The notes beneath the pieces were generated by a model. It did not search any database. It was not told where the DNA came from and worked only from the letters and a program-made list of their open reading frames with translations. From Pseudomonadota bacterium (GTDB taxonomy: Bacteria; Desulfobacterota; S145-22), in contig WGDA01000124.1 of NCBI GenBank assembly GCA_015493505.1, positions 1 through 32,249 on the forward strand: DNA of 32,249 bases. Direction: 5' to 3'. Below, piece by piece: positions 274 through 21,863 of the stretch (positions are counted from its first letter, which is position 1; every line of letters begins with the position of its first letter). The translations under genes and the position numbers were made by a program.

Positions 274-1242
274 TCAAGCGTATTCCTGTCCCAGCTTGAT
301 CCTCGAAATGTGATACTGCCCCATTCCCTGGGTGGTGTGCTGGCCGATGTGGAGCGCCTCGCCAAGGACGAGGAGGGGAAGAAGCAGGGCCACCTCCCCC
401 TTCAGCTCCACGCCGCCCATGAATCCCTTGATGGGTTCCTGCGTTTTCTTACCCGATGGGTGTTTCTTGGTTGCTACGCGATGCACAAACCTGAAGTCCC
501 CGTGCCGTTCGAGGCTGACGGAATTCCCGTCCAGAATCGTTTCGAGCGCCGGGACCGTCCCCGTGAAGCCGCAATGCTGGGTCGAAACCCCGGCGAGACG
601 CCGGTGAAGGGCTTCCATAAAAAGCTCCACCGTCATATCCTCGGGCTGTGTGACCTTCCGGTTCTGAAAGGTAAAATGAAACGGGGTGAGGAAATCGATG
701 GCAACCCTCGTGACCGGCGTTGCCCGGATCTTGCCCGACCGGACATATTCCACAAGAAGGTCTTCGAGCCTGAAGGGCCTGCCGCCGTTTGCCGTCTCGA
801 CGCCTTCCAGCGTCATCGCGAGCGGGCTCTGTTCATCCACGGAATCGAAGGCGATAAGCGGTTTTGAGACAAAGGCGTCCCGGACCTCTTGCGTTTTCTC
901 CGTGCCATACCCAAGAAGCCGAAGGGTGAAGGAAAGCGTGTCGCCTTGTCGGAACATCCCACGCGCCCGCTGCGAGGGAGCGGTGTGGATGAGGTAGGGG
1001 AGATAATCCCTTCGCGCATCCTCCACAAGCAACGCGTGATAGAGGCAGGACGCGCGGTGGGCGCACGCCGCGCACGCCATCTGGCGCTGGTCGAGGCATG
1101 GGCTCTGGCTTTGAAGGATCGCCTTGAAGACAGCCCGGAACTTCCGGGCGGGGAAGTTCCCCAGATATCCGGTCTCAACGGCGCGATACGTGACGTTCAG
1201 GTCTGTAAACCGGATGGCCGAGAGCCAATCATCCGCGTCCAT
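274..1242 (-). CDS. cas6: Cas6-family CRISPR RNA endoribonuclease
   Basis: 322 aa; C-terminal Gly-rich RAMP motif 'LGEALHIGQHTTQGMGQYHI' typical of Cas6 (PF10040-like); internal Cys cluster 'CLDQRQMACAACAHRASC' seen in this Cas6 type; located in a CRISPR locus. Confidence 0.85.
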   Translation of the reverse strand: MDADDWLSAIRFTDLNVTYRAVETGYLGNFPARKFRAVFKAILQSQSPCLDQRQMACAACAHRASCLYHALLVEDARRDYLPYLIHTAPSQRARGMFRQGDTLSFTLRLLGYGTEKTQEVRDAFVSKPLIAFDSVDEQSPLAMTLEGVETANGGRPFRLEDLLVEYVRSGKIRATPVTRVAIDFLTPFHFTFQNRKVTQPEDMTVELFMEALHRRLAGVSTQHCGFTGTVPALETILDGNSVSLERHGDFRFVHRVATKKHPSGKKTQEPIKGFMGGVELKGEVALLLPLLVLGEALHIGQHTTQGMGQYHISRIKLGQEYA

Positions 1243-2227: not shown

Positions 2228-4567
2228 CTAATATCTTCCCACAAACGGCTTGTAGCGTGTCTTTCCCATGAGACAGCGGGCCAGATGCCTCGACTGGAGC
2301 ACAATCACCTCGCCGAGCAATACCTTGCGCCTCCTACGATAGGGCACCAGGGCACTCAGACGCTCCAGGACATTCTGTATAACCTTTTTCCTTGAACCAT
2401 CCGTCAGATACCCGGGTTTTTCATCCAGCGCGAGATGCTCGTCGCGGGTCACCATGGTGAAAATGGCGCGGTCCACCACCTGTGACCTGAACTCTTCGAT
2501 CATATCATAGACGAGCACGGGCTTGTTCTTCTGTGACGCGTGTAGAAAACCGATATAGGGATTGAGTCTTGCCAGGATAAGCGCCCGCCAGATTTTCCCA
2601 TAAAGGATTCCATATCCATAATTGAGGCAGGAATTTATCAGATCGCTCGCCCCCCGTCTCTCCCGGCCGGGGAAGTCCATGTCATTTCCGAACAGAATTT
2701 TGGCAAGCCGCCAGTAGCTCGAGGCGACTCTTCCCTCGATGGAAAGCAGTTCGTAACGAAAAGCGGCAGAGTCGTTGTCGGAAATCCTCTTGATCCGATC
2801 CGTCATCGTTTCTACTTCATCTTCCATCGCTCGGAGCTTTTGCTGGAACAGATGGTTGTCCTTACGGCTTCTCCCATAAAATTTCATGAGGTTCAACTGA
2901 TTCTTTATCTTGCCGGCCACGATTCTTTTTGCAATTTCATTGCCCACCCCGTTTCGCACCGCCTCAAGCTGGCTCAAGTGCAGGCTTGTGTCCGGGGACT
3001 CCGGAGACAAAAACATGGCATAAGGGGTCCCAAGGGCATCGCAAAAGAGGAATGGAATCCCCTTCTCCCCGCACGCCCGGACCAGGTCGGACGACAGGGT
3101 GATGCCGTGGGCGGCGACCAGGATTCCCTGGACCGTCTCCATTCGTTTCTTCAGCAGGGCCTTCCCCTGAAAGCTTACGACAACCCTGGTTCCCCGTTTC
3201 CCGAGGAAGGAACCGGGTGTCGTCACCACAATCTCCGATGACAAGGCCTGTTTCCGAAGATACTTCCGTTTTTTTCTCAAGACCGCGCGATCCCCCGATT
3301 TAACGGGGGCCTCAACCGATGGAGAAACATGCTTTCTGCTTTCGCTGGGCGTGCTTTTTGCCGTGACGACCTGTTTCAGGCTCCGCGTGACAATCTCCTT
3401 TACCCTCTCCTCGCGGCCCTCCCTGAATTCCCTGGAGAGGAAAGGCAGGGGAGAGAGGTAATCCGTCAACTCCCGTGTGGTATGATAAATTCCCTTCCTG
3501 ACGAATTCGGCCAGAAGGGGAATAATCCGTTCCGCGACAAACAGATCGGTTTGGACCATCTGTTCTTCGGGGTCGAGAACTTCGTAATAGCGATGAAACC
3601 CCGCGAGGGACTCGCACAATTTCGTCATGAGAAGAGCCGGGTTGGATGTATGATGCCGAAGAATCCAGTCAATCCTGCGCCTGATCTTTGCCATCTTTGC
3701 CGTTGATATGGCCCTGATCTCATCGCGATAATAGATCCCGAGAAACGTGAATCCCCGCGCCAGGGAACAAATGGGCCTCTTGTCCGGGTTCAGCATGAGT
3801 TTCAGGGTCTCAAGGGCGTAAAATGTCAGATCATCCAGCGCCTCACGGGCCCCTTTCCGGGAGAAAGAGAGCACGATCATGTTGTCGGAATATCGAAGGT
3901 AGGTATATCCCCTGCGCGTCATGTAAACATCGAGCGGATGGGCATAGATATTCGACAGAAGCGGGGAAATAATGGAGCCCTGCCCGATGCCTTCCGGCAT
4001 ATCCCCGTATTCCCCGCTGGGCCCCACGAAACCGATGGTGCTCCACATGCGGATGAGGCGAAGGATATCCGCATCATCCACGACCTTATGAACCTCATTG
4101 ATCAGGATGTCCTGGTTGAGGGAATCGAAAAAATTGTCAAAATCGGCGAGGGCCACCCACCGATATTTCTCGTCGGATAGCAGGTGGTGCATCCGGATAA
4201 AAACCTTTCTTGGCCCCTTCCCCGGGCGATAGGCGTAACTGCAGGGCAGGAACACCTTCTCAAACAGGGGTTCAATCACCTGCCTGACGGCCTGCTGGAC
4301 GATCTTATCCCGCACCGTCGGAAGAGACAGAACACGCTTCTCTGGGGTTCCATTCATTTTTGGGATGGCGCACCGCCGGAAGGGCTCGGGGACGTAGGTC
4401 CCGTTTTTCAACTCATCGAGGAGTTCCCGAAGGAATCGGTCCCGTTCCCTCTCGAAATCACGAACGCTCAGGCCGTCGATATCCCCCGCCGCCTTTTTGG
4501 CGCGAACCCTCTTCCAGGCGTTTTGAAGGGTGGACAGGCGACAGACCTGTTCAAACAGAACATCCAT
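2228..4567 (-). CDS. cas1: Reverse transcriptase-Cas1 fusion (group II intron-like RT + Cas1 integrase)
   Basis: 779 aa from ATG at 4567 (ORF track start 4651 overlaps cas2). RT motifs: 'LADFDNFFDSLN', 'GIGQGSIISPLLSNIYAHPLD', 'LRYSDNMIV', 'FTFLGIYYR'. Cas1 motifs: 'EGRVASSYWRLAKILFG', 'SCLNYGYGILYGKIWRALILARLNPYIGFLHASQKNKPVLVYDMIEEFRSQVVDRAIF'. Confidence 0.95.
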   Translation of the reverse strand: MDVLFEQVCRLSTLQNAWKRVRAKKAAGDIDGLSVRDFERERDRFLRELLDELKNGTYVPEPFRRCAIPKMNGTPEKRVLSLPTVRDKIVQQAVRQVIEPLFEKVFLPCSYAYRPGKGPRKVFIRMHHLLSDEKYRWVALADFDNFFDSLNQDILINEVHKVVDDADILRLIRMWSTIGFVGPSGEYGDMPEGIGQGSIISPLLSNIYAHPLDVYMTRRGYTYLRYSDNMIVLSFSRKGAREALDDLTFYALETLKLMLNPDKRPICSLARGFTFLGIYYRDEIRAISTAKMAKIRRRIDWILRHHTSNPALLMTKLCESLAGFHRYYEVLDPEEQMVQTDLFVAERIIPLLAEFVRKGIYHTTRELTDYLSPLPFLSREFREGREERVKEIVTRSLKQVVTAKSTPSESRKHVSPSVEAPVKSGDRAVLRKKRKYLRKQALSSEIVVTTPGSFLGKRGTRVVVSFQGKALLKKRMETVQGILVAAHGITLSSDLVRACGEKGIPFLFCDALGTPYAMFLSPESPDTSLHLSQLEAVRNGVGNEIAKRIVAGKIKNQLNLMKFYGRSRKDNHLFQQKLRAMEDEVETMTDRIKRISDNDSAAFRYELLSIEGRVASSYWRLAKILFGNDMDFPGRERRGASDLINSCLNYGYGILYGKIWRALILARLNPYIGFLHASQKNKPVLVYDMIEEFRSQVVDRAIFTMVTRDEHLALDEKPGYLTDGSRKKVIQNVLERLSALVPYRRRRKVLLGEVIVLQSRHLARCLMGKTRYKPFVGRY

Positions 4568-4572
4568 GGCGG

Positions 4573-4851
4573 TTAGACGAAAACAACCGGCTCTTCCCTC
4601 TTTTCTCCGCTGTTTCCCTGCGCTTTGATCTTTCGCTGGCATTCCCGGCAAAGGGGATAATACCGAACGTGATCCCTCCGGGGATTGATCACCTGCCCGA
4701 TCTCACGCCGGAGCGCCGTGAAGGCCCGGGCATCCGTGAGTGTGCACTCAAAGACGGACAGATTAACCCTTTCCCCGTGCCGGGAGAGGATTTTTACCAC
4801 CCGGTTGCGCCGGCGCGTGGCGGAGATGTCGTAGGCCACGACCACAAACAT
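4573..4851 (-). CDS. cas2: Cas2
   Basis: 'MFVVVAYDISATRRRNRVVKILSRHGERVNLSVFECTL' is a typical Cas2 N-terminus; GGGGAGGG ribosome-binding site just upstream; 5-nt gap to RT-cas1. The longer ORF start (4875, TTG) lies inside a CRISPR repeat and is unlikely. Confidence 0.92.
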   Translation of the reverse strand: MFVVVAYDISATRRRNRVVKILSRHGERVNLSVFECTLTDARAFTALRREIGQVINPRRDHVRYYPLCRECQRKIKAQGNSGEKREEPVVFV

Positions 4852-4868
4852 GCGACCCTCCCCGTTCT

Positions 4869-5134
4869 GTCTCAATGCCCAGCCTGCCTCACAGGCCAGG
4901 CTTACGGAATCGCCAACATATTTTCTCTACAAGGCCGTGAGCGGTCTCAATGCCCAGCCTGCCTCACAGGCCAGGCTTACACAGTGATAGTAATTTTACA
5001 GAGAAGGAAAAGGGTCTTTTGTCTCAATGCCCAGCCTGCCTCACAGGCCAGGCTTACTGGCAGTATTAGACACCCTTTTAAAATCTTTAGGAAAAAAGTC
5101 TCAATGCCCAGCCTGCCTCACAGGCCAGGCTTAC
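4869..5134 (-). CRISPR. CRISPR array: 4 identical 37-nt repeats, 3 spacers (38, 40, 40 nt)
   Basis: Repeat (+) GTCTCAATGCCCAGCCTGCCTCACAGGCCAGGCTTAC at 4869-4905, 4944-4980, 5021-5057, 5098-5134. On the minus strand it ends ...GCATTGAGAC, like the 8-nt ATTGAAAC-type 5' handle, so transcription is inferred on minus. Internal hairpin AGCCTG-CCT-CAC-AGG-(c)-CAGGCT. Confidence 0.98.
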
Positions 5135-5625: not shown

Positions 5626-7062
5626 TCACGGGTTTTCCCCTATCACCGCACCGTAATTCGTGGAGGTTTTCTGATACTTATCAAAAAAGAGGGTCTTTTT
5701 TTTGTAACTTTTTGGCTTCTCAGGGTTTGGGAATATCTCTTTCCCCTGACTATTTTTCCTCACCTCTTCCACGCAGGCAAACCCCTTTTGGTCGCAGTTT
5801 GCACCACGCGTATTAAAGGGCGGGTAGATGAACAGATAATTTCTTTTCTCGCTTTCACCCGGGAAGTGGAGGATTTTTTTCAGCTTTTCATACGCCTCTG
5901 GGAAGATCAGCTTTTCATCCAGGTCCTGCTTCCGGATCGTTTTCATATTTTCATCAACCCCGAGGGGGCCAAAAGGATCTCCCATGTCCTTTTTTTTCAC
6001 GGTGGTGACGGCGAAACGCACACTTCCGAAACCGAAGGGTTTCAGTGCCCCCAGCTTGTGGGCCATGTCCTCCTCGAGGACCAAACCATAGACGAGCAGC
6101 TTCAGGAGCGCCTCGGGCATGTCGGTGAAATACACCCGTCCGCCGTGGATGGATGCCCCCGGTTTTATTGCCTCCACGTCATATTCCCACATTGCTCTCA
6201 TCCAGCCCTTTTCCCATTTCCTGTACTCTTTATGACATGGGTCAGGCTCCTGGTGGAAATAGAATTTTCGGCCCCTTACCTTGTCGGCCAGGATTTCCCA
6301 GACGTTATGCCCCCTGACATTTCTTGGTCTACTCCCGCCTGGTGTGAAATACCAGGCCGTGTTGGCCCGCGGGTTGGGAGAGCCGAAGACCGCGTCGGAA
6401 TTGAGGTCCCACGCCTTTTTACATTCTGTTAAAACAGAATTATTCACCACAATATCCTCAAAGAAGACCCTGCCTTTTCGGCTTCGGCCCGCCCCGTTTT
6501 GTTCTACATGCCCAAAGAGGAACCTCGCCGCGTCCTCCGCCTTGTTCTGGCCGAAGCCGTTGGGGAGGGTTGCGTTCCTTTCATACCTGAATGGACTTAC
6601 AGAGCCATGCCTACCCCTGAAAGAGAATTGCTCTTTTCTCAAGTTTTCGACACTTTTATCGTCGGCCGAAGCAATCAGGAAGCCCACATGCCTATTAACT
6701 TTAATGGCTTGCCGCCCTCGGCCCGCAAACCATTTTCCATAGGCCGGTCGCCCTGAAGTATTCTTTTCGTCTCCCCTTGTGAACGCCCGCAGGTCGCTGC
6801 CGGTGAGGGCCTCGAGGAAGGCGGACACCATCCCCCTGAGGGAGGCGCCGGGAATCACCCTTTGCCCCGCCCGCCGGAAAAAGAATTTTTTGTCAAAATG
6901 ATTCTGATTCTTAGGCTTTGTCGTTTTCCCGGTTATGTGGAGCGGGGTCAGGACCTTGATGGTATATTCAATATATCCCTCGAGCCTGGGTTGGTTCAGG
7001 ACATCATCAGAGATGGCAATCGGGCCATTCTGGGGTAGGGGGACGAAATCAAAGGGATTCAT
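5626..7062 (-). CDS. Type III RAMP protein, TIGR03986-like
   Basis: 'MNPFDFVPLPQNG...EGYIEYTIKVLTPLHITG', 'VIPGASLRGMVSAFLEAL', 'HKLGALKPFGFGSVRF' (Gly-rich RAMP motif). The ORF extends to 7074; 7062 is the preferred Met. Confidence 0.75.
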   Translation of the reverse strand: MNPFDFVPLPQNGPIAISDDVLNQPRLEGYIEYTIKVLTPLHITGKTTKPKNQNHFDKKFFFRRAGQRVIPGASLRGMVSAFLEALTGSDLRAFTRGDEKNTSGRPAYGKWFAGRGRQAIKVNRHVGFLIASADDKSVENLRKEQFSFRGRHGSVSPFRYERNATLPNGFGQNKAEDAARFLFGHVEQNGAGRSRKGRVFFEDIVVNNSVLTECKKAWDLNSDAVFGSPNPRANTAWYFTPGGSRPRNVRGHNVWEILADKVRGRKFYFHQEPDPCHKEYRKWEKGWMRAMWEYDVEAIKPGASIHGGRVYFTDMPEALLKLLVYGLVLEEDMAHKLGALKPFGFGSVRFAVTTVKKKDMGDPFGPLGVDENMKTIRKQDLDEKLIFPEAYEKLKKILHFPGESEKRNYLFIYPPFNTRGANCDQKGFACVEEVRKNSQGKEIFPNPEKPKSYKKKTLFFDKYQKTSTNYGAVIGENP

Positions 7063-8110
7063 GTAATGATCCATGGGTGCCCTCCTTGTTTTGGCTTAAG
7101 GTCTTGTAGTGTTCCTTCAATATGTTGAGATAGTCCTCCCTGGCTTTTCCCCAATCTTCATTGGAGATGGTCCAGCGCGTGAAGAGTCCAGCGAGTATTT
7201 CATTACGTGCTGTGCCGCCATTCTCTTTTTTCAAATAAGTAGATCCGTTTGGCCTACCAGAATCTCTGAGATAGAGATTGATCTCCTTCTCCGTTATCTT
7301 CAGTCGCCCCCTTCCCGCAGCGGTCAGTCCGCCCAGCCGGAGCCTTCCGCTGTCGATGGCGTCTTCCCAAAAGCCCAGAAGGCCGATGTCCGTGGGCTCC
7401 GGATTCACAATACAGAGCTTTATCGTGAAGGAATTGCCCGGGGCGAGCTCCATGAAGCTGTGCAGCCCCCCCGCCTTTGCCGCCTGGGTAATCCGGTCCA
7501 GGGGGTTTCTCGTGGTAAAACACATGCGCCCGTTCCGGGAGGGGTATTGCACTTGATGAATATTAAATCCTTCCGATTCCAGATGGCTCTTTATATCCTC
7601 TTCAGGTAACTCCGGGGGACCCTCAACCATCACACGCAGCCTGCCGGCAATTGTGGGGTTGGAGATATCCTCATCCATATCCCAGGCCAGCCCGAACAGG
7701 TTCCTGACCAGTTGCCATCCCGGATCGTTCGTGGAGGCCTTGAGATCGCTTTCCCCGGAACATTCATCAGGATAAAGAAAGGCATTCCACCACTCCCTTT
7801 TGACCAAGGCGCGGATGGTAAACCCCCGAAGCGCCCCGCGCACGCTGGAGGGGGGAATGGTATATCTAACGCTAAGTTTGCTCGCGCTGTTGATATCATT
7901 GATAAATACGTCGTAGTAAAAATCCGCGATGGTGTGCTGGGTTAAGGTCTTGTTGAAAAAATCGAAGGTGGCTTTAACCTGCCGGGTCTTCGGCTGCGTC
8001 GACTGGTTCCACACCGAGGTGGTTCCCGCCTTGATGCAAAGGGGGGTGACGGTCTTCACCTGCCACCTCATCCATGCCACCCCATTTATTGTAGAGAATT
8101 GTGTGTCCAT
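7049..8110 (-). CDS. Type III RAMP (Cas7-like) protein
   Basis: 'MRWQVKTVTPLCIKAGT', 'YTIPPSSVRGALRGFTIRAL', 'LRLGGLTAAGRGRLKI' are RAMP-type motifs; 353 aa. Confidence 0.75.
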   Translation of the reverse strand: MDTQFSTINGVAWMRWQVKTVTPLCIKAGTTSVWNQSTQPKTRQVKATFDFFNKTLTQHTIADFYYDVFINDINSASKLSVRYTIPPSSVRGALRGFTIRALVKREWWNAFLYPDECSGESDLKASTNDPGWQLVRNLFGLAWDMDEDISNPTIAGRLRVMVEGPPELPEEDIKSHLESEGFNIHQVQYPSRNGRMCFTTRNPLDRITQAAKAGGLHSFMELAPGNSFTIKLCIVNPEPTDIGLLGFWEDAIDSGRLRLGGLTAAGRGRLKITEKEINLYLRDSGRPNGSTYLKKENGGTARNEILAGLFTRWTISNEDWGKAREDYLNILKEHYKTLSQNKEGTHGSLHESL

Positions 8111-8113
8111 ATC

Positions 8114-9001
8114 CTATTTCTCCTCCGCTTTTATGGCGCTTGAGAATTTCTCCTTGAAGTTCTTTATCTTCTCCCCCTGCTCCTCTTGCGAGAGTTGCTT
8201 CAATCCCTCGTAGCCCGCGTGCCCCGATTGAATAGCCTTATCCAGCCAATCTGTCAGGTTTTCCTGGTTCAGGCAATAGATGGCCTGCATGTCAAAAGAG
8301 AACCTTCCGAAGCCGATACTTCTCATGGCGCCCAGGGTTACCGGATATATCTCCGAGTTGAAGCCTTCAAGGGTAAAAATCAGCATGCCGAGCTCTTCAT
8401 CGCTGAGGTTCTGACCGCTGATGGTGAGCTTGAATTTGGCCCCTTCGGGCACCACCTCATAGTTATACAGCTTTTTTTCCGCCGCCGTCCCCGTGGCGGG
8501 ATCTATCGCGACCGATTTCAGGATTATGGTGCCCCTTGTGCCGTCATAAGCGAGATACACCTTCCTTTGATCTTGGGAGATTTGGGGAGGATTCAGCATG
8601 GGGGCGTCCCAGAATTCGAGCTTCCCTTCGTTGACGGCGCTGCCGAAAAGGCGCTCGGCCAAGGTAAGTCCGGGGGACCGCTTGTCATTTATGGCATCTC
8701 TCAGGGTCGCGGCCCGCTTTCCGTCGTTGACGCATGCCAGGTCCAACGGCGTGAATATCTGGGTGGCCCATGCGCGCATATTCCCCTTGAGTGTGCTCCC
8801 CGGGATATAGGCGCGGTCCCGGACGTCTGTTACGACCGTGGTGAATTTAACCTCCCCGCCGTTGTCGTCCTCGAGGGTAAGCCTGCTCGGGTCGCTCATC
8901 ATCCCGCCATCGCCGATGTGCAGGGGGCTTCTGGTCGTGAGTGTTCCCGTGATCTTATACCGATTGACAAGACTCCCTCCCTTGAATTCCCCATTGACCA
9001 T
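8114..9001 (-). CDS. Csm3-like RAMP (Cas7 backbone) protein
   Basis: 'YKITGTLTTRSPLHIGDG', 'VVTDVRDRAYIPGSTLKGNMRAWA', 'LGAMRSIGFGRFSF'; Asp residues before the IPGSTLKG loop resemble the Csm3/Cmr4 target-cleavage Asp region. Confidence 0.8.
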   Translation of the reverse strand: MVNGEFKGGSLVNRYKITGTLTTRSPLHIGDGGMMSDPSRLTLEDDNGGEVKFTTVVTDVRDRAYIPGSTLKGNMRAWATQIFTPLDLACVNDGKRAATLRDAINDKRSPGLTLAERLFGSAVNEGKLEFWDAPMLNPPQISQDQRKVYLAYDGTRGTIILKSVAIDPATGTAAEKKLYNYEVVPEGAKFKLTISGQNLSDEELGMLIFTLEGFNSEIYPVTLGAMRSIGFGRFSFDMQAIYCLNQENLTDWLDKAIQSGHAGYEGLKQLSQEEQGEKIKNFKEKFSSAIKAEEK

Positions 9002-9002
9002 T

Positions 9003-10826
9003 TTACTGCTCCTTTGTCTTGATTTTTATTTCACCGTACCCGTTTTCACGCAGATACGGGCAATGTTGCCACAGCGGTTCACCGAAGGCTTCATGGACCC
9101 ATTTCGGCAGCGGCATTCCTTCATCCAGGAATTGAGCGACTCTTTGTTTGACCTCTTCCTTTTTCTCAGCCTCGGAGGCATCCAGCACGAAGGTGCTGCC
9201 CGCCGAGGTCAGGTAGAAGGGCCGGTAGGTCCCATTTCCATAGCGCATCCCCACATACCCGCCTCTCAGCTCCTGGGCCGCGAAGAACCGCTTCAACACA
9301 ACGCCATGGCCGAGGATTTCTTCCCAAAACTTCTGGTATTGATTATGAAGCAGGGCACTGTCATTGAATATCTCTTTCGCCTCTTTGGCCATAACCTCGG
9401 GATCGATGATTATGGCGGGGGTCTGGAGAACGATGGCGAACTCGTCCGGGACATAGGGCGCCATATCCTTGATTTTCGGCATCGCTGATATCTGCACGAG
9501 GCACTGACGTTTGCCGAGATAGCGCAGGGCCAACGGCAGGGCGCGAACAAGCTCTTCGGTGATCTCAGCGCGTTCCTCAGGTGCAAGACGAGGGGGAATC
9601 CGCACTTCCGTATTCCAGTAAACCTGCCTCAGGCTGCCCTCGGACCGGGCCATCGGCTTGATCATCCACATGGTGTAAAGTTTGCTTTCCTCGGCCTTTC
9701 TTGTCAGGGGGTCAATGGCTGTCCTGGTAGTCGAATGATACTCCAGGGGTGGGAGGCGGTAGGACTCCGGCAGGTTGTCGGGAGGGCCCTTCCAGTCTAT
9801 TTGAAAGGCCACCGGGGTCGTTCCATCCGCGTAAATCTCTTCATCTTTGAGGAAGGTAACCTCCCGATAGCGCCCCCCATAGGCAGCCCCCGAGAGGGGG
9901 ATGGCCTCGGAGCGTGTGTGTTCTTTCAGCGAGGGGATGGCGTGGAGAAAAATCAGGTCCGAAAAATGCGCCGCCAGATTTGGGAAGCATGCCTTGACCG
10001 CCGAATTATCGCTGGTGATAGGCGAGTTCAGGTTTCCATTTCCGGCAATCCGGTTAAGGCCGGCGGCCAGCGCCCCTTTGAGCACCGCGCCGGGGATGAT
10101 GGGTTCGCTTTCAAATACGTTCTCCGTCCTCCTGATCCCCCCGATGAAGAGTGGTTCCTGAGGGGCGATCGCCAGTTTCAGGCCATCACCGGATGGGTTA
10201 GTATCAAACGAAGAGGTTTTGCCGAATGAAAGAAGGTCAGTTTGGGTAAGTGAAAATGAGATCCCGATTAATCGGCCAAACCCAGAGGTCTTTTCCGCAC
10301 CGATGTTCGCGATAAGGGTAAAGGCCCTTTTAAGTTGTTCAACGCACGCATCGGTTAGATTAGGGTCGCAGAAAAATTCGATCGTTCCTTCCCACTCGCT
10401 TGTGTCATTCGGTTTTATGGGGGATTCCATCATCCAGAGTGCGCCCTTTTCCACGGAGAGCCTTTCGTGCTGGATCCTGATCCTGGTAAGGGGCTGGTTG
10501 GCCTGCCTCTCTGGGGCCCTTTTCAGGACGAAGTCCATAACCTTCAGCTTCCCTCGCGCTGGGGCATACGGGTCGCTGCCCATGCCGCTCTCTTTGCCAA
10601 ACCATTCTTCCAAACTCCAGGGGGTTCCCCTATGGGGCGCGGGGAGAAGGGTCATTGCCTCCCTCAGTTTCCCCCTCACGTGGGAGCCGGGGATGGCGTA
10701 CTTTCCCTTCCAGTTCCTGTAGAACGCCACGTCCATTCCCCACGTGGCAAACGCGGAACCCGCTGTCAGGACAGGCCCCATCACGCGCAGCGTGACGGAC
10801 AATTGCACGAGGTTGTGTGTCGACAT
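9003..10826 (-). CDS. Two-domain RAMP fusion (Cas7-like N-domain + Csx10/Cas5-like C-domain)
   Basis: 607 aa with two RAMP modules: 'VMGPVLTAGSAFATWG...YAIPGSHVRGKLREA...NIGAEKTSGFGRLIG', then 'LAIAPQEPLFIGG...PIIPGAVLKGALAAGLNRI...LHAIPS...RTAIDPLTRKAEESKLYTMWMI'. Confidence 0.7.
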   Translation of the reverse strand: MSTHNLVQLSVTLRVMGPVLTAGSAFATWGMDVAFYRNWKGKYAIPGSHVRGKLREAMTLLPAPHRGTPWSLEEWFGKESGMGSDPYAPARGKLKVMDFVLKRAPERQANQPLTRIRIQHERLSVEKGALWMMESPIKPNDTSEWEGTIEFFCDPNLTDACVEQLKRAFTLIANIGAEKTSGFGRLIGISFSLTQTDLLSFGKTSSFDTNPSGDGLKLAIAPQEPLFIGGIRRTENVFESEPIIPGAVLKGALAAGLNRIAGNGNLNSPITSDNSAVKACFPNLAAHFSDLIFLHAIPSLKEHTRSEAIPLSGAAYGGRYREVTFLKDEEIYADGTTPVAFQIDWKGPPDNLPESYRLPPLEYHSTTRTAIDPLTRKAEESKLYTMWMIKPMARSEGSLRQVYWNTEVRIPPRLAPEERAEITEELVRALPLALRYLGKRQCLVQISAMPKIKDMAPYVPDEFAIVLQTPAIIIDPEVMAKEAKEIFNDSALLHNQYQKFWEEILGHGVVLKRFFAAQELRGGYVGMRYGNGTYRPFYLTSAGSTFVLDASEAEKKEEVKQRVAQFLDEGMPLPKWVHEAFGEPLWQHCPYLRENGYGEIKIKTKEQ

Positions 10827-10839
10827 CTCTTACCCCCTT

Positions 10840-12300
10840 TCAGGTCAAGTAATCAAACAATTCCGCCATTTGGAGCCAGCGGTATCCCCCCGGCGCGCGT
10901 GTTTTCTGTGTCTTTCCGTTAATAAAATCCGTTTGGGTAACATTTTGTATGGCGTTGATCAGGTTGTTCTTTTGCGTGGTGTTTCCTTCATAGGCGTCCA
11001 GCCCGTCATCAAGCAGTTCGGCATAGGACGTATCGTTACCCCTCGCCCATGCGGCGGCTATCTTAAAGACGCGCGAGCGCGGAAAGCCTTCTTTCAGAAG
11101 AGCGGCGAATTCCTGCATCGCTTTCATGTCGCCCGGGGAAAAGGTAACCTTGTCTGGTCCTGTTTTGTAATAGTCCCGGCAGAAGGTCTCATAGGAAGCG
11201 GGGAGGGTCTCCAGGGATTCCAGCACGAGGCAGCCCATCCGATCCCCGGAATCGCGCTTGTAAGGATCTGAAATTCCACCCTTCACGGCGTGTACCAGTT
11301 CTTCGGCGATCCTGGTGATGTTTCTGATAGGGTTGTTATGATGGGCAAAGACAAGCCCCATGGCGTAGGTCAGGTCTTTTCTGCTCATCACCATTTTTGG
11401 GTCATTTGCAAGAGAAAAGAAAAGCGACGCCACTTTCCACCCCAACCACGCGGGCACAATGAGTTTTAACTCGTCGCCTCCCCAGAGTAGGGTTTCCAGC
11501 CTCACCTTTCCCCCGGCAAGAAAAGAGGGGTCGTTTGCCGGCAGGCCGAGAATGGATGATAGAAAGTCTCTTTTGAAGCCCTGAAGCTTTTGGTCGTAAT
11601 CCTGGAAATCCTCTTCCGAAAATTCCTTCTGAAGGGCGCCGAATTTATTGCCATCCACGTAGATATAGGCAATTTTCCCACTCAGGTTTCCCTGATCGGG
11701 GTCCGACGACAGCTCTTCCAGGCTGTCGGTGAAATCATACCCGGCAAAAGAGATTGAGCTGTTTTTGAGCATCTCAGCATATATTTTTTGGCGAAGGGTT
11801 TTGCCCTGCTCTCTTCGTTGGTACGTGAAATTGGATATGTCTTTATCCTTTGAGTTATCATGAACATGCGCGGGCAAGACCCTGTTAAATTCATCGAACC
11901 GCATGGTGCCATTTGGCTTTAAGGTATCTTCAAAGACCCTAATACACGGAGACCGCATCTGGGCAAGCCGTAATTTTCCCATGAGCTTTGCCAGGGCTTC
12001 CTGAAAATTGTTCCCATATTCAATATATTCCACAAGAAACATCATCTCTTTTATGGATGAGACTCCATTATAGAGTGAGTCAAGGAGACCCTGTTTTTCT
12101 TTTTCCGGGTTATTTGTATCGACTTTAAATACCGCGGTGCTTGCCCCTTCCGTGATCAATTGATAACCCGATCTTGCCGCGAGCTGGTGAACCCGGTTTA
12201 AGAGATAGAACCCCCCGCCCCGGATAGTGCTGATGTCGGAGGTGTCGTAGATCGTTGTCGCCAGATTGACCGCCTCTACCCTGAAAAGATACTGAGCCAT
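10840..12300 (-). CDS. cas10: Cas10-like palm-domain protein, GGDE variant, no recognisable HD domain
   Basis: Start set to MAQYLFRVEAVNL at 12300 (GGAG upstream; the ORF-track extension overlaps the previous gene). 'IAYIYVDGNKFGALQKEF' and 'LLWGGDELKLIVP' are Cas10 palm-type motifs; 'YDTSDISTIRGGGFYLLNRV' N-terminal block. No HD pair seen at the N-terminus. Confidence 0.75.
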   Translation of the reverse strand: MAQYLFRVEAVNLATTIYDTSDISTIRGGGFYLLNRVHQLAARSGYQLITEGASTAVFKVDTNNPEKEKQGLLDSLYNGVSSIKEMMFLVEYIEYGNNFQEALAKLMGKLRLAQMRSPCIRVFEDTLKPNGTMRFDEFNRVLPAHVHDNSKDKDISNFTYQRREQGKTLRQKIYAEMLKNSSISFAGYDFTDSLEELSSDPDQGNLSGKIAYIYVDGNKFGALQKEFSEEDFQDYDQKLQGFKRDFLSSILGLPANDPSFLAGGKVRLETLLWGGDELKLIVPAWLGWKVASLFFSLANDPKMVMSRKDLTYAMGLVFAHHNNPIRNITRIAEELVHAVKGGISDPYKRDSGDRMGCLVLESLETLPASYETFCRDYYKTGPDKVTFSPGDMKAMQEFAALLKEGFPRSRVFKIAAAWARGNDTSYAELLDDGLDAYEGNTTQKNNLINAIQNVTQTDFINGKTQKTRAPGGYRWLQMAELFDYLT

Positions 12301-12316
12301 ATCGAATTCTCCATTT

Positions 12317-14722
12317 TTAGGTGTGTTCCTGACTCTTTGAAAAAATGAGTCTAAAGAGAATGATAATTGACCAAGCAAAACAAACACCGCACACGAAGGA
12401 AATTGCAACAAAGAGCCATGAGCTTTTGCCCCAGCTCATTACCTGATCGAAGTTCATCCCGAAATAACCCGACAGGATTGCAATAATCCCGAAAAGCACC
12501 CCTATATGCCCGGCTGTGGTGTTGAACTTTTCCACGTTTTCGTTATGTAACACCTCAACCAGGTCATCGGCCCGTTCGATTTCCTCTTTTACCTGGCTGT
12601 ACATTGTATCGAGCTGAAAAGCCTTTCGTATCAGGTGGAAAAGCTCGATGCCCTGATCTTGATGGGTAACTTCAACAAACCAGTGGACATTCATGAACCG
12701 CATAAACTCCGTGTGCAATACACGCAAATCTCGTTTCAGGGCTTCCAAAAGCTTTTTATTTTCTGAACTGGTTGGCCATTTTTTCGCGATCGTGGCAATT
12801 TCGTCCGCGAACCTGACAAGCCGTGCCCGGTAGTAGGTGGCAAGGAGAAACATCTGAAAATTCATGGATACAAAGGGACGGTATAAAAAAGCTTCATATC
12901 CAAAATACAGAAACGCCGCGGAATATCTGGAGAACCCTATTTTCGTTCCATAATGGGACCATCTTTCATAGGTATGCTCCCGAATCAGGTTTTCTGTGAA
13001 TTCGCGCGCGTAGCGGTAATCTTTGCCCGGGTTATCCACAAAGAGAAGGTGAGAAAAGTAGATGTCTTTATCATGTTTGGATGTGTTTTCGAAACACTTT
13101 TGAAAGGCCACGTAGCAATAGACCAGCATCCGATCGTCCAGGATGGGATAATAGGCGACACCCTCGCCCAATAAGGTTGTCAAAAGGGGCTTAATATGAT
13201 TTTGAAAAACGGGATATGCCTTGTCACCGTTTTCCTCTTTTTTCATGTAAACAGAAAGAAAGCCATCTTCCCCTTTCTGTGAGGAAATCTCCGATACACT
13301 CTTACCATTCTGATATTCCTTTATTGTCAACAATGCCGGGAATTCATTGTTTTTTATCTGCTGATACGGGTCATCCTTCTCAAAATAGGCCGGGTAAAGC
13401 CTCCGAAACATTTGATTGAAATAGAGGAGATCCGATCCGGTAGAGACCATGGGAAACTTTTTTAAAAGCGCTTTCTCTTCTTTTGTCAGGCAGCGATCCG
13501 CTGTATTGCTGGTTTCAACTACAAGGATTCCGACATCACCCGGATAGATAAACGCATAGACCCCGTTGATGACCGCAGCCACCTCCGAGGGTTTTTCACC
13601 CTGATTTCTAAAGAACTGCAATGTGGTTATAGGGATTCCTTTAAAGTCATACCTATAGAATGAGACGGCATCATCTTCTTCCCGCTTTTCTCTTTTCCCG
13701 TTTTCATCCGAGCTGAACGGGAAGAGGAACGAACGAATATACTCATGAAAATAGATATATTCACTATAGTTTCGCTGAAGATCCCAATTATCTTTCAGTT
13801 CGTTTTCCTCTTTTGGGAGCTTGAACGTTTCCTTTTTCCATGATTCTGATGCTGACAAAAAATTTTTCTCTTTCGGGTGAAAATAGAAGGGATAGATAAA
13901 CATGGTGCAGAATTTGTCGATTTTGGCCCGATGCATTGGCGTGGTTTCCTGATTTGAATCCCTATCCAAAAGCATCTCTATCTCTTTGTCTCCAATAATT
14001 TTGTTCGCCCCGAAATACCCCCTTTCCGGCAGATTGCCGCCATACCAGAATTCGATGCCTGGGGACGTTTTGCTGAGTTCCGCGTATTTTTCTTTGAGTT
14101 TCTCAACTACTTTGCCGCTTCCCGCGTAGTGAAATTTGTGGTCGGGCGTGCGGATGAAAATGTACTCGTATTGGTCATAAAGGGCATCAAAGATCGGGGC
14201 GGTCCGATTTGTGAGCGCGTCGATAACCACGGCGCAGGGGGTAATTTTTTTCAATTTCTTTTCAATGGATTTCTCAGCGAGGTCTCTGTCCTTTTCCGTA
14301 ACGCCCTGGCAGTCTTGATCCAGTTTTCTTATTGCTTTGACTTCATCCTGGGTGGCGCACAGCTCGAGCATCGCGTCGATGTATCCCCGGTCGTTGGCGG
14401 CGATAAGCCGCTGCCTTCTGTCCAGCTCCACACCCAACAGGCCAGCCACCTGTTCGAGGGAGGTTGGTTTGTCCTCGCCCGCCGCCTCCCCGTGGTGGTC
14501 GATGATAAGCGCCCTCTCCGGATACGCGCAATCCAGCTTCAGTTCGACGAAGACGGGAATCTGGGTATCGGGAAGTTTTTCGAGTTCTGCTTTGTATTCG
14601 GAAAGCCTGGCGCCCCATGACAGGTTTTTGTCGTGAAATGGGATGCCCTTTTCTTCAAAAATCTTGCGGATCTCGCACATCTCTGCGTCATGTCCGCCAA
14701 GGAAAAAGACGTAATCGTTCAT
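12317..14722 (-). CDS. DHH-type phosphoesterase-like domain fused to CorA-like membrane domain (predicted type III CRISPR ancillary effector)
   Basis: N-terminal 'ERALIIDHHGEAAGED...LIAANDRGYIDAM'; C-terminal 'ADDLVEVLHNENVEKFNTTAGHIGVLFGIIAILSGYFGMNFDQVM...SWLFVAISFVCGVCFAWSIIILFRLIF' = two TM helices with a CorA GMN motif; sits just upstream of the Cas10-like gene. Confidence 0.82.
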   Translation of the reverse strand: MNDYVFFLGGHDAEMCEIRKIFEEKGIPFHDKNLSWGARLSEYKAELEKLPDTQIPVFVELKLDCAYPERALIIDHHGEAAGEDKPTSLEQVAGLLGVELDRRQRLIAANDRGYIDAMLELCATQDEVKAIRKLDQDCQGVTEKDRDLAEKSIEKKLKKITPCAVVIDALTNRTAPIFDALYDQYEYIFIRTPDHKFHYAGSGKVVEKLKEKYAELSKTSPGIEFWYGGNLPERGYFGANKIIGDKEIEMLLDRDSNQETTPMHRAKIDKFCTMFIYPFYFHPKEKNFLSASESWKKETFKLPKEENELKDNWDLQRNYSEYIYFHEYIRSFLFPFSSDENGKREKREEDDAVSFYRYDFKGIPITTLQFFRNQGEKPSEVAAVINGVYAFIYPGDVGILVVETSNTADRCLTKEEKALLKKFPMVSTGSDLLYFNQMFRRLYPAYFEKDDPYQQIKNNEFPALLTIKEYQNGKSVSEISSQKGEDGFLSVYMKKEENGDKAYPVFQNHIKPLLTTLLGEGVAYYPILDDRMLVYCYVAFQKCFENTSKHDKDIYFSHLLFVDNPGKDYRYAREFTENLIREHTYERWSHYGTKIGFSRYSAAFLYFGYEAFLYRPFVSMNFQMFLLATYYRARLVRFADEIATIAKKWPTSSENKKLLEALKRDLRVLHTEFMRFMNVHWFVEVTHQDQGIELFHLIRKAFQLDTMYSQVKEEIERADDLVEVLHNENVEKFNTTAGHIGVLFGIIAILSGYFGMNFDQVMSWGKSSWLFVAISFVCGVCFAWSIIILFRLIFSKSQEHT

Positions 14723-18370: not shown

Positions 18371-21001
18371 TTAATAATCCACACCCGTGGCGAGGATGTC
18401 CCGAGATTTGCGCTCTAAATCGTCCCACTCTTCCTCAAACCTCTCTTCCAGGAACGGCAGGACGAGGTCCCCTAACGGGTCCCCCAACCTGGCCAAACCT
18501 TCCGCCGCAAACAAGCGAACTTTCCAGTATTCATCCCTCAGGGCCTCCATGAGCGCCCCATGTCTATCGAGGTCCGGCGTTCCACTCAGCTTCAAAACCG
18601 CGCAAGCTCGAACCTCTTCACAAGGGTCTTTCAGGACATCTGTAAAAATTTCGATGACTTCCGGTTCGTGCCGAAAGGGGAGATAGAGCGAGGCGGTAAG
18701 TCGATATTCACTATCCTTATACGTTAACGCCCTGCGAAAGCCGATGAGCGCCTTCGGGTGTTTTACCTGGCTCAACGCGAAAAGACCTTTACGTTCGTAA
18801 AGGGGGAAGTGCCTCAAGAACGCGTCAACATATCGGTGATCCCCGATTTTCCCCAAAGCCTCCATTGGTGTGGTAGTGTCGCGGTCTTTTACTCGCATTT
18901 CAGCTTCGAAGAGCGCTTCCGCCGCCGTGGGATCCCCGATTTCTCCGAGAATTTCAATCGCCTCTTTTGCCATTGTTCCTTCCGGTTCTTGCCGGACATA
19001 TTCGATAAGGGGTTGGATCGCTTCCTTGGGTTCATAGATTTTCAGGGCCAAAGCGGCCGATTCTCTGAGGGAATAGTCCCGGTCGCGCCTAAACACATCG
19101 ACGGTCAACTTGATGCCAAAGGGGTTTCTCATTTCCACGAGTAACCACATCGCGTCTTCGCGCAAATCACTCAAAGGGTTTTTTAGGATTTTCAAAAGGG
19201 TATGAATGGCCTTAGGCGTTTTTGTTTTTGCCAACGCTTTTATGGCTGCTTTCCGGACGATATCTTTTCCGTCGCGATTCAAAACTTCCAAAAGGAAATC
19301 CACGGTTCTTGGGTGCGCGATCCGCTTCAACGCCCAGAGTCCCGCGACAAGAATTCCATCCGAATGATTACCGCTTATGTAATAATCCTCGAATATTCCA
19401 GATAGGTTGAATTTTTCAAATTCCCGTGGATTCTCTTTTCCCGACCCATGGGGCTCTTTTTCCATGGTATCCCTGATGATTCCAATGAGAGGTTCAACCG
19501 CCAGGGAGCTGCCAATATCCCCCAGGGCGCATACCGCGGCGAAACGAATGCGGGGATCTTCATCCCGAAGGGCGGTAAGCAATGGCAATACCGCGTCCGT
19601 ATGTTTCAGGACACCCAGGGCTTCAATGATGGTTGCCCGGGCCTTGATGTCTTTTTCCATGTTCAGGGCCTTCAGGAGCGGGGCGACCGCGGAGGGGGTT
19701 TGGGTCATGCCCAGGAACGCCGCCGCGCAGCCTCGTATTTCAGGCGTCCCATCACGGAGAAGGGCCACAAGCCCCGCTTGGAGAAGGCTTAGGAGCTCTT
19801 TATCCCCGTCAATCTGCCTGAGAATATCACTGGCAAACTGGCAAAACCATTCCCGGTCCCCAGACACAACATTGAGAGCTTTCCGGACGGTAGTTTCCAG
19901 TTTGATTCGCAGAATCGGGGTTTTGAGGTAGAGATGGTTCAGAAATTCCTTGAGGAATATTTGCCGAAGTGCTCGCTTGATAACGGCAGGGTACTCACTT
20001 TGCTCTACATTCATTCTTTCCGCCTGTTTCCGTAAAACCTTTTCCGCTTTCTTTCCCCCAATTACCCCCAGCGCTTCGATAATCGCTTTCTGACACCATG
20101 GCTCTTCTTCCAGGCGTAACGCGCGTATCAGCGGCACCTCCGCCGAGGAATCTCCTATCCTCATGAGCGCCATTGCCGCGATTCGCCGAACACAGTCCCG
20201 GGGATTTTCAAGGGCGGCCACAAGGTGATTGACAGATGCGGAGGTGCCGATACGCCCAATCGCTCTATACCCTTCAACCGCAAGATCCGGCTGCTTGGCA
20301 ATAAGCTCGACGATCGGCTTTATGGCCATTGGGTCCCCGCGGAGGCCCAACCGCGAAACACATTTGTCTATAAAAGGCGCGTCCGAGTCCCGTGCGTAGT
20401 CAATCAACTGTTCCGTGGGCGTTTTGCGAAAAATCTTTTCAGCAGCCCCAGAAATAGCGACTATCAGAGATAGAATCTCCGATGATCTAAATTTCAGTAG
20501 TGATGGAATAATATTAAGGGTGCCGATTTTTCCGAGAGCGATGATGGCGTGGCCGGCAACGTTGAGATCTGCGTCGTCAAGGAGCTGTACGAGTACATCA
20601 CTGCCTTTCGGATCCCCGAATTCACTGAGAACCCTCACCACGTGGAGGCGTTTTTCCGACGAAGTGTCTTTGATTCTTTTTTCGGCTTGGGCCAACAGGC
20701 TGTCTGCCGCGTTGAGTTTTCTGACCGCCTGATATGACGCATGGCGGATCCATTCATCTCCGTCCCACGCCATCTCCAACAGAAGAGGAATCGCCCGGCT
20801 CTCCCCGATTTCAGCCAACGCCAGAATCGCCCAGTAGCAGACCCACCAGTCCTTGTCCCGGAGCCTTTCCATGAGGGGGCCGACCGCCTCTCTGAGTTTC
20901 ATCTCTCCCGCCAGGATCGCTGCCGCCGCGCGAACCCGGTGATTCCAATGCCTGAGCGCTCCAAGAAGGTCTTCAACCGACTGAACCCTGACTTGTGACA
21001 T
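18371..21001 (-). CDS. Large HEAT-repeat (PBS lyase-type) protein
   Basis: Many repeats such as 'VRAAAAILAGEMKLREAVGPLMERLRDKDWWVCYWAILALAEIGESRAIPLLLEM'; start MSQVRVQSVEDLLG at 21001. Confidence 0.85.
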   Translation of the reverse strand: MSQVRVQSVEDLLGALRHWNHRVRAAAAILAGEMKLREAVGPLMERLRDKDWWVCYWAILALAEIGESRAIPLLLEMAWDGDEWIRHASYQAVRKLNAADSLLAQAEKRIKDTSSEKRLHVVRVLSEFGDPKGSDVLVQLLDDADLNVAGHAIIALGKIGTLNIIPSLLKFRSSEILSLIVAISGAAEKIFRKTPTEQLIDYARDSDAPFIDKCVSRLGLRGDPMAIKPIVELIAKQPDLAVEGYRAIGRIGTSASVNHLVAALENPRDCVRRIAAMALMRIGDSSAEVPLIRALRLEEEPWCQKAIIEALGVIGGKKAEKVLRKQAERMNVEQSEYPAVIKRALRQIFLKEFLNHLYLKTPILRIKLETTVRKALNVVSGDREWFCQFASDILRQIDGDKELLSLLQAGLVALLRDGTPEIRGCAAAFLGMTQTPSAVAPLLKALNMEKDIKARATIIEALGVLKHTDAVLPLLTALRDEDPRIRFAAVCALGDIGSSLAVEPLIGIIRDTMEKEPHGSGKENPREFEKFNLSGIFEDYYISGNHSDGILVAGLWALKRIAHPRTVDFLLEVLNRDGKDIVRKAAIKALAKTKTPKAIHTLLKILKNPLSDLREDAMWLLVEMRNPFGIKLTVDVFRRDRDYSLRESAALALKIYEPKEAIQPLIEYVRQEPEGTMAKEAIEILGEIGDPTAAEALFEAEMRVKDRDTTTPMEALGKIGDHRYVDAFLRHFPLYERKGLFALSQVKHPKALIGFRRALTYKDSEYRLTASLYLPFRHEPEVIEIFTDVLKDPCEEVRACAVLKLSGTPDLDRHGALMEALRDEYWKVRLFAAEGLARLGDPLGDLVLPFLEERFEEEWDDLERKSRDILATGVDY

Positions 21002-21104
21002 TATTCTCACCACTCCCCGTTCTTTTCTGCCCCCACACCTGAACCTATTCAAAACCACCTTGATATCCGCGGCACATGCGTTCCCTTTTTCCGCAAAAGT
21101 GGTT

Positions 21105-21863
21105 TTATTGCTCATTTTTCTTGGTTCCCGCATTGCTCCCCTGGGCGTTTCCCTTTCCACCGGGTTTTTCACCGGCCTTGCCGGTCTTCAATTGGATGAT
21201 TTTTTCCGCGATTGTCTGACCGGTTATTTTCCATACCTCCATTTCGTTTACCATTTTTTCCGTGATTTCGACTTTAACCATGACGATTCCGTCGTAAACA
21301 ACCTTATGTTGATGATGGTCGTAAACATAGATTTCGCGCAGCCTTTCCGTATAAGGTTTATGAAAGGAGAAGGATGACGTATGTTCTTTGATACCCATGA
21401 ACTTCAGCGCAACCAGGATATCCGCGTGCGTCTTCCTGCATACTTTTTCGAAATTTTCCAACATGTCTTTTTCGGTCATTTCAATTGTCGATTCTTCAAG
21501 ATTTAGCTTGTCCAATATTTTTGACACGCGTGAGGGCGTCAGAATTTTTCTGAATTCATGTGATTTCTGTAATTTGTCCGCCACATAAACCGCAGCATCA
21601 TCGCCTGGCCAAACAACCAATTGTTTGCAGCGGTTCATCGTGCTTTGAATATCGCTTCCCACTTTTTTGTCTTTGAAGCTGACGGTAACCGAGGCGCCAG
21701 TTTCTATCTGCACGGATTTAAAAATGGTAAAGCTGGTAAAAGCCGTATCTCCCACGGTCATCAGTGGCATCACGGCCATTGGCGCCGCAGCGCAGCCGCA
21801 CAGGAAGGTTCCGACACAAAAAAGAAACAGGAACTTTACGGTTTTTCTTGCCATTTTTTTCAA
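21105..21863 (-). CDS. Putative lipoprotein of unknown function
   Basis: Lipobox 'FLCGCAAA' after a hydrophobic signal; 252 aa. Confidence 0.6.
   Translation of the reverse strand: MKKMARKTVKFLFLFCVGTFLCGCAAAPMAVMPLMTVGDTAFTSFTIFKSVQIETGASVTVSFKDKKVGSDIQSTMNRCKQLVVWPGDDAAVYVADKLQKSHEFRKILTPSRVSKILDKLNLEESTIEMTEKDMLENFEKVCRKTHADILVALKFMGIKEHTSSFSFHKPYTERLREIYVYDHHQHKVVYDGIVMVKVEITEKMVNEMEVWKITGQTIAEKIIQLKTGKAGEKPGGKGNAQGSNAGTKKNEQ

Follow-up and report, generated by a model that had tools for sequence, protein, structure and literature searches.

An NrN–CorA fusion protein in a type III-D-like CRISPR locus: a predicted membrane channel that may carry its own signal eraser

A single chain of 801 amino acids, encoded in a window of 32,249 nucleotides (the whole stretch of DNA that was analysed), joins an NrN-type DHH phosphodiesterase to a CRISPR CorA effector with two C-terminal hydrophobic helices, an architecture confirmed by profile matches and structure prediction. 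This protein is likely to be a signal-gated membrane channel carrying its own signal eraser, in a type III-D-like CRISPR system. The two domains, the intact catalytic residues, the operon context and the III-D clade come from sequence and structure comparison; the identity of the messenger, the gating, the oligomer and the local clearance of signal are what we infer. The III-D-like rather than III-B nature of the locus, which is the part of interest, had escaped the initial annotation of this DNA.

Domain layout of the fusion and its operon

The open reading frame is uninterrupted by stops and present whole in the genome assembly. The PADLOC profile DHH_CorA matches residues 3–248 of the 801-aa protein (5.5e-61) and the PADLOC profile CorA residues 275–796 (4e-77), while a phmmer comparison with the PDB NrN chain gives 1.6e-37. 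The AlphaFold model has a mean pLDDT of 77, with values of ~82–95 in the NrN part; the CorA part, built as a monomer, is of modest confidence. The top Foldseek match of this model is 9lqa, that is NrN E21A with SAM-AMP (E 2.5e-22, TM 0.86 by target), and the CorA structure 8tmc ranks below the NrN entries (E 3.1e-4). Profile matches, intact catalytic residues and the AlphaFold/Foldseek results thus concur on the identity of the fusion. A frameshift or assembly artefact is ruled out, the frame being intact and stop-free and the NrN–CorA order being repeated in 11 other loci.

These results bear out the initial annotation where it read one chain with a DHH-type phosphodiesterase-like domain and CorA; the locus is a type III CRISPR one and the catalytic residues are intact. 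The IIDHHGE and ANDRGYID motifs on which it drew are both found in the fusion, GMN lies at 12452–12460 as it claimed, and the AlphaFold and Foldseek check that it proposed recovered both a DHH fold and the CorA topology. It was mistaken on two points. The DHH codons, placed at 14502–14510, lie about ten bases away when counted from the sequence (14492–14500), and the middle region of ~400 residues that it described as having no family is spanned by the CRISPR CorA profile and corresponds to the known CorA cytoplasmic domain. This region had seemed unassigned because Pfam sees just the CorA tail of the fusion, below its cut-off; a new sensor family in the middle region is rejected.

In the NrN domain, D12, E14, D75-H76-H77, N110-D111 and the C-terminal glycines (GG..G..G) do not vary among the 21 NrN domains aligned, that of the fusion included. 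E14 is the counterpart of NrN E21, the residue mutated in 9lqa, and D111 that of NrN D119, mutated in 9lqc. With a fold and catalytic residues that match NrN, the domain is predicted to be a SAM-AMP phosphodiesterase. The features of a CRISPR CorA are present as well, namely the cytoplasmic domain, two C-terminal transmembrane (TM) helices and the RR and DD pairs. In Bacteroides fragilis CorA, mutating the R152-R153 or D219-D220 pairs abolished immunity; their probable equivalents in the fusion were mapped through a Bacteroidota CorA (L031, residues 155-156 and 229-230), used in place of the B. fragilis sequence. By analogy with CorA biology, the fusion would probably be a pentamer, with a 1:1 stoichiometry of its two parts.

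The fusion gene heads a tightly packed run that continues with cas10, a 607-aa double RAMP (R607), two Cas7-like RAMPs (R295 and R353) and a TIGR03986-like Cas7 (R482), the successive gaps being 16, 13, 1, 3 and -26 nt (Table 1). A short CRISPR array, Cas2, a reverse transcriptase–Cas1 fusion, a PIN protein and Cas6 come after the effector run. The reverse transcriptase–Cas1 fusion suggests a possible capacity to acquire spacers from RNA. Outside the CRISPR operon, the window encodes a 933-aa HEAT-repeat protein (18371–21172). An Rfam search gave no match.

Table 1. Coordinates of the fusion, its domains and motifs, and the neighbouring CRISPR genes in the window
Feature	Position	Strand	Basis
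NrN–CorA fusion ORF, 801 aa	12317..14722	(-)	
NrN-type DHH/DHHA1 phosphodiesterase domain, residues 3-248	13979..14716	(-)	PADLOC, PDB NrN, Foldseek 9lqa
Motif I, D12-A-E14	14681..14689	(-)	invariant in 21/21 aligned NrN domains
DHH motif, D75-H76-H77	14492..14500	(-)	invariant in 21/21 aligned NrN domains
N110-D111	14390..14395	(-)	invariant in 21 aligned NrN domains
Linker between the two domains, residues ~249-274	13901..13978	(-)	254-260 modelled with low confidence
Cytoplasmic domain of CRISPR CorA (putatively ligand-binding), from residue 275 to ~735	12518..13900	(-)	PADLOC CorA, model
R440-R441, probable counterpart of R152-R153 in B. fragilis CorA	13400..13405	(-)	alignment
D529-D530, probable counterpart of D219-D220 in B. 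fragilis CorA	13133..13138	(-)	alignment
TM1, about residues 740-758, GMN at its end	12449..12505	(-)	hydropathy; model helix 704-755
GMN motif, G755-M756-N757	12452..12460	(-)	counted from sequence
TM2, about residues 768-795	12338..12421	(-)	hydropathy, model
Cas10, 486 aa, no HD domain, DGN + GGDE palm	10840..12300	(-)	
Double-RAMP subunit (III-D Csm4/Cas5-like), 607 aa (R607)	9003..10826	(-)	
Cas7-like RAMP, 295 aa (R295)	8114..9001	(-)	
Cas7-like RAMP, 353 aa (R353)	7049..8110	(-)	
TIGR03986-like Cas7 (III-D), 482 aa (R482)	5626..7074	(-)	
CRISPR array with four ~37-nt repeats and three spacers	4865..5134	(-)	
Cas2	4573..4851	(-)	
Reverse transcriptase–Cas1 fusion	2228..4651	(-)	
Cas6	274..1242	(-)	

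Subtype of the locus and its relatives

In the Cas10 tree, the eight Cas10s of III-D CorA loci, that of the window among them, form one clade (100/99) that joins the III-D1 references (91/91), and ten Cas10s of III-B CorA loci form a separate clade (98/95). Two marks of type III-D are found in the window, a TIGR03986 Cas7 (score 148, under the curated cut-off of 161) and a III-D Cas5/Csm4-like subunit; no gene for the small subunit Csx19 was seen at the window locus. The sole PDB sequence match of the window Cas10 is the 9wxh complex (9wxh/9wxi/9wxj; 2.6e-47), which is also the nearest PDB match of R607 (4e-47). A Cas10 structure model drawn from three sequences was given no weight, its quality being poor (pLDDT 54). 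With its Cas10 in the III-D clade, the locus is classed by sequence as type III-D-like. An ordinary III-B SAM-AMP system with the already published fusion would fit the NrN–CorA architecture, which is common in III-B loci, but it is very improbable here: the Cmr1/3/4/5/6 set is absent from the window operon, III-D profiles and TIGR03986 stand in its place, and a III-B identity is contradicted by the Cas10 tree and gene content alike and is rejected.

Related loci were collected from a genome search of the bacterium's own phylum, one scan of a species-level genome collection and annotated plasmids, and were typed against III-B and III-D references, whereby the two groups separate cleanly. The scan relied on two N-terminal NrN patterns, so that it favours NrN-bearing loci and yields no frequencies; in the whole-genome sample of the phylum, NrN occurs in 5/395 genomes. 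III-B loci contributed 11 NrN/CorA fusions, including those on Arcobacter and Haliscomenobacter plasmids, and Cmr genes adjoin the fusion in every case with flanking sequence. One of these 11, in a Spirochaetales MAG (L030:890-3247), is reversed, with NrN C-terminal to CorA.

The III-D-like module was found in the window and in eight further loci (L013, L014, L015, L016, L017, L026, L032 and L033). NrN is present in the window, in Desulfonema magnum and in four others, to which a weaker, diverged case (L017) can be added. The D. magnum locus (L026) has the same NrN–CorA fusion; here a III-B-type NrN–CorA precedes a III-D cas10 by 541 bp (L026:10001-14642, NZ_CP061800), an apparent effector swap between subtypes. 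The genes corA and nrn are separate in Rhodobacter capsulatus (L032) and in an Acidobacteria MAG (L033), the NrN of the latter having a diverged motif I and being the least certain of the separate NrNs. In genome G172 (L013), nrn, again a separate gene, lies directly 3′ of the TIGR03986 gene. Genome G153 (L014) encodes a separate CorA together with a 1000-aa TIGR03986 Cas7 bearing NrN at its C-terminus (residues 740-988); in this Cas7–NrN fusion (L014:11632-14634), the predicted eraser would be tethered to the effector complex. The diverged case (G015) is a CorA with an N-terminal DHH region (E 2.4e-4; motifs IDHH, SSLEQ and SANDRGHI). No NrN was found in the contigs or genomes of L015 and L016, both III-D with CorA; therefore, III-D CorA does not always need NrN. 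The CorA of L016 (G144, same genus as the window) belongs to another subclade and has neither the second R nor the second D of the pairs.

Other observations were made in passing. In G172, the first ~160 residues of CorA are joined in-frame to the second palm region of Cas10 (L040:13418-14587), owing to a deletion or an assembly error. A weak NrN match in G183 (L018) is actually a RhuM-family protein. Searches of viral contigs for the whole fusion protein and of annotated phages for NrN found none. A stand-alone NrN of 263 aa (PADLOC DHH_CorA 4.4e-35, PDB NrN 4.2e-22) was seen on a phage contig (L054:5992-6783, IMGVR_UViG_3300035141_000014) among early genes for replication initiation and Gam-like, Erf and Rha-like proteins. 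This protein is a candidate anti-CRISPR that would counter SAM-AMP signalling.

Origin of the fusion, messenger and mechanism

In the NrN tree, a single clade of III-D NrNs is rejected (AU p 0.0001), and the NrNs of the window and D. magnum group with III-B types. The D. magnum CorA is sister to a III-B one (100/99) and its Cas10 is III-D; since this fusion is nested in III-B fusions despite its III-D Cas10, one effector type serves both Cas10 types, which bears on the question of the III-D signal. The window protein behaves differently in its two halves. Compared with III-B proteins, its CorA is 21-24% and its NrN 36-53% identical, and against the III-B fusions L019/L012 its NrN reaches 53% and its CorA just 21%. 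The AU test rejects a position of the window CorA among these fusions (p 0.0004) and disfavours one of its NrN outside the III-B types (p 0.0185); the AU p values serve as a guide only, since the trees contain long branches and were already known when the groups were picked. The window fusion thus probably had an origin of its own or came about through an exchange of domains.

As regards the messenger, the NrN of B. fragilis is active on SAM-AMP but leaves pApA and cA2-cA6 uncleaved (Chi et al. 2023, PMC10600005), so that an NrN on a III-D CorA points to SAM-AMP, which by this analogy we infer to be the signal of the window system. However, the synthase itself counts against it. Cas10 D70, important for SAM use (Chi et al. 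2023, PMC10600005) and pinpointed by residue count along the B. fragilis-type Cas10 of PDB 9lq5, is kept in 10/10 III-B CorA Cas10s examined; its place is taken by the Ser of an invariant GAS in 7/7 complete III-D CorA Cas10s, the window's included, a match resting on motif context via III-D1 and P. furiosus because HHalign of the III-B and III-D Cas10 profiles aligned the second palm alone and left unalignable the place of E151, which like D70 is an acidic acceptor-site residue. III-D Cas10s may thus bind SAM differently or make something else, and the literature searched holds no report of SAM-AMP from a III-D complex.

If something else is made, whether another adenylyl conjugate or a cyclic oligoadenylate, the CorA sensor would have been retuned to it along with NrN. 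GAS and GGDE in place of the SAM-favouring Asp, the lower conservation of the window CorA relative to its NrN, and the part of Hoikkala et al. 2024 that proposes cA6 for a divergent CorA clade would all fit. This is nevertheless rather unlikely, given that the catalytic and motif residues of NrN are unaltered, that the window NrN groups with III-B NrNs in the tree described above, and that in D. magnum a III-B fusion with hardly any modification is used by the III-D locus. It is tentatively proposed that the III-D Cas10 branch, with its GAS acceptor loop, GGDE palm and missing HD domain, makes SAM-AMP or a close non-cyclic relative through an acceptor pocket unlike that of III-B, and that NrN has repeatedly been attached either to the channel that senses the signal (window, D. 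magnum) or to the complex that makes it (Cas7–NrN of G153).

With SAM-AMP as the signal, the system would probably operate as follows. On meeting target RNA, the crRNA-guided III-D-like complex would have its HD-less Cas10 make a nucleotide messenger, most likely SAM-AMP, whose binding to the CorA cytoplasmic domain would open or distort the (probably pentameric) channel and lead to growth stop or cell death. The NrN domain on every subunit, beside the sensor, would hydrolyse SAM-AMP locally to SAM and AMP; more than a late reset, this clearance would keep the channel closed at background signal and responsive under strong signal. The built-in off switch of the initial annotation is too simple a term: in B. 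fragilis, immunity requires NrN activity (PMC10600005) and a SAM-AMP lyase can replace NrN, and therefore the eraser is part of the effector's working.

Could the fused NrN serve chiefly to restrain the channel in the manner of an antitoxin, or as its scaffold, hydrolysis being secondary? B. fragilis CorA without NrN is toxic even when SAM-AMP is not synthesized (PMC10600005), a fusion fixes stoichiometry and both fusion orders exist (CorA–NrN in L030), all of which would suit such a role. It is improbable all the same, since catalytic residues are retained in every NrN copy, B. fragilis DHH mutants lose immunity (PMC10600005), an unrelated lyase substitutes for NrN, and the NrN of L014 is fused to Cas7 and not to CorA.

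Comparison with known systems

As an architecture, the fusion is not new: nrn and corA are fused in the III-B systems of Aliarcobacter butzleri and relatives, where a functional link was suggested (Chi et al. 2023, PMC10600005), and the 11 III-B fusions found here add to these. The Aliarcobacter genes have the same domains in the same order, directly before the cas effector operon, an order verified on the Arcobacter plasmid (L036), but they belong to a Cmr (III-B) locus, whereas the window has a III-D-like Cas10 and RAMPs, and the window CorA is ~24% identical to the Arcobacter CorA (L036). The B. fragilis III-B system shares the NrN fold and catalytic residues and a CorA with the RR and DD pairs; it differs in having separate CorA and NrN proteins, a III-B complex and a Cas10 with D70. 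Why immunity there requires an NrN activity that a lyase can replace is not understood in the literature, and the fused protein lends itself to a clean study of this need for SAM-AMP destruction. The PDB complex 9wxh/9wxi/9wxj (Cas10, a 635-aa RAMP and a 1235-aa TIGR03986 protein) matches the window Cas10 and R607, but its TIGR03986 protein is one 1235-aa chain where the window has three separate Cas7-like proteins.

The closest counterparts in subtype are the CorA-associated III-D systems of Makarova et al. 2025 (PMC12669027), which likewise combine a III-D Cas10 with a CorA effector. The passages of that paper on these systems call their sensing of SAM-AMP unclear on the ground that these loci encode no known SAM-AMP-cleaving enzyme. 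What is new is therefore the III-D context of NrN–CorA, an exception to that statement as worded in those passages; a III-D NrN could be marked in Fig. 7 of Hoikkala et al. 2024, this comparison being one of texts. The III-D loci with NrN fused to or beside CorA or Cas7 make the III-D SAM-AMP question directly testable, and, compared with the III-D CorA systems as described in those passages, the window differs in having a predicted enzyme of this kind fused to CorA itself.
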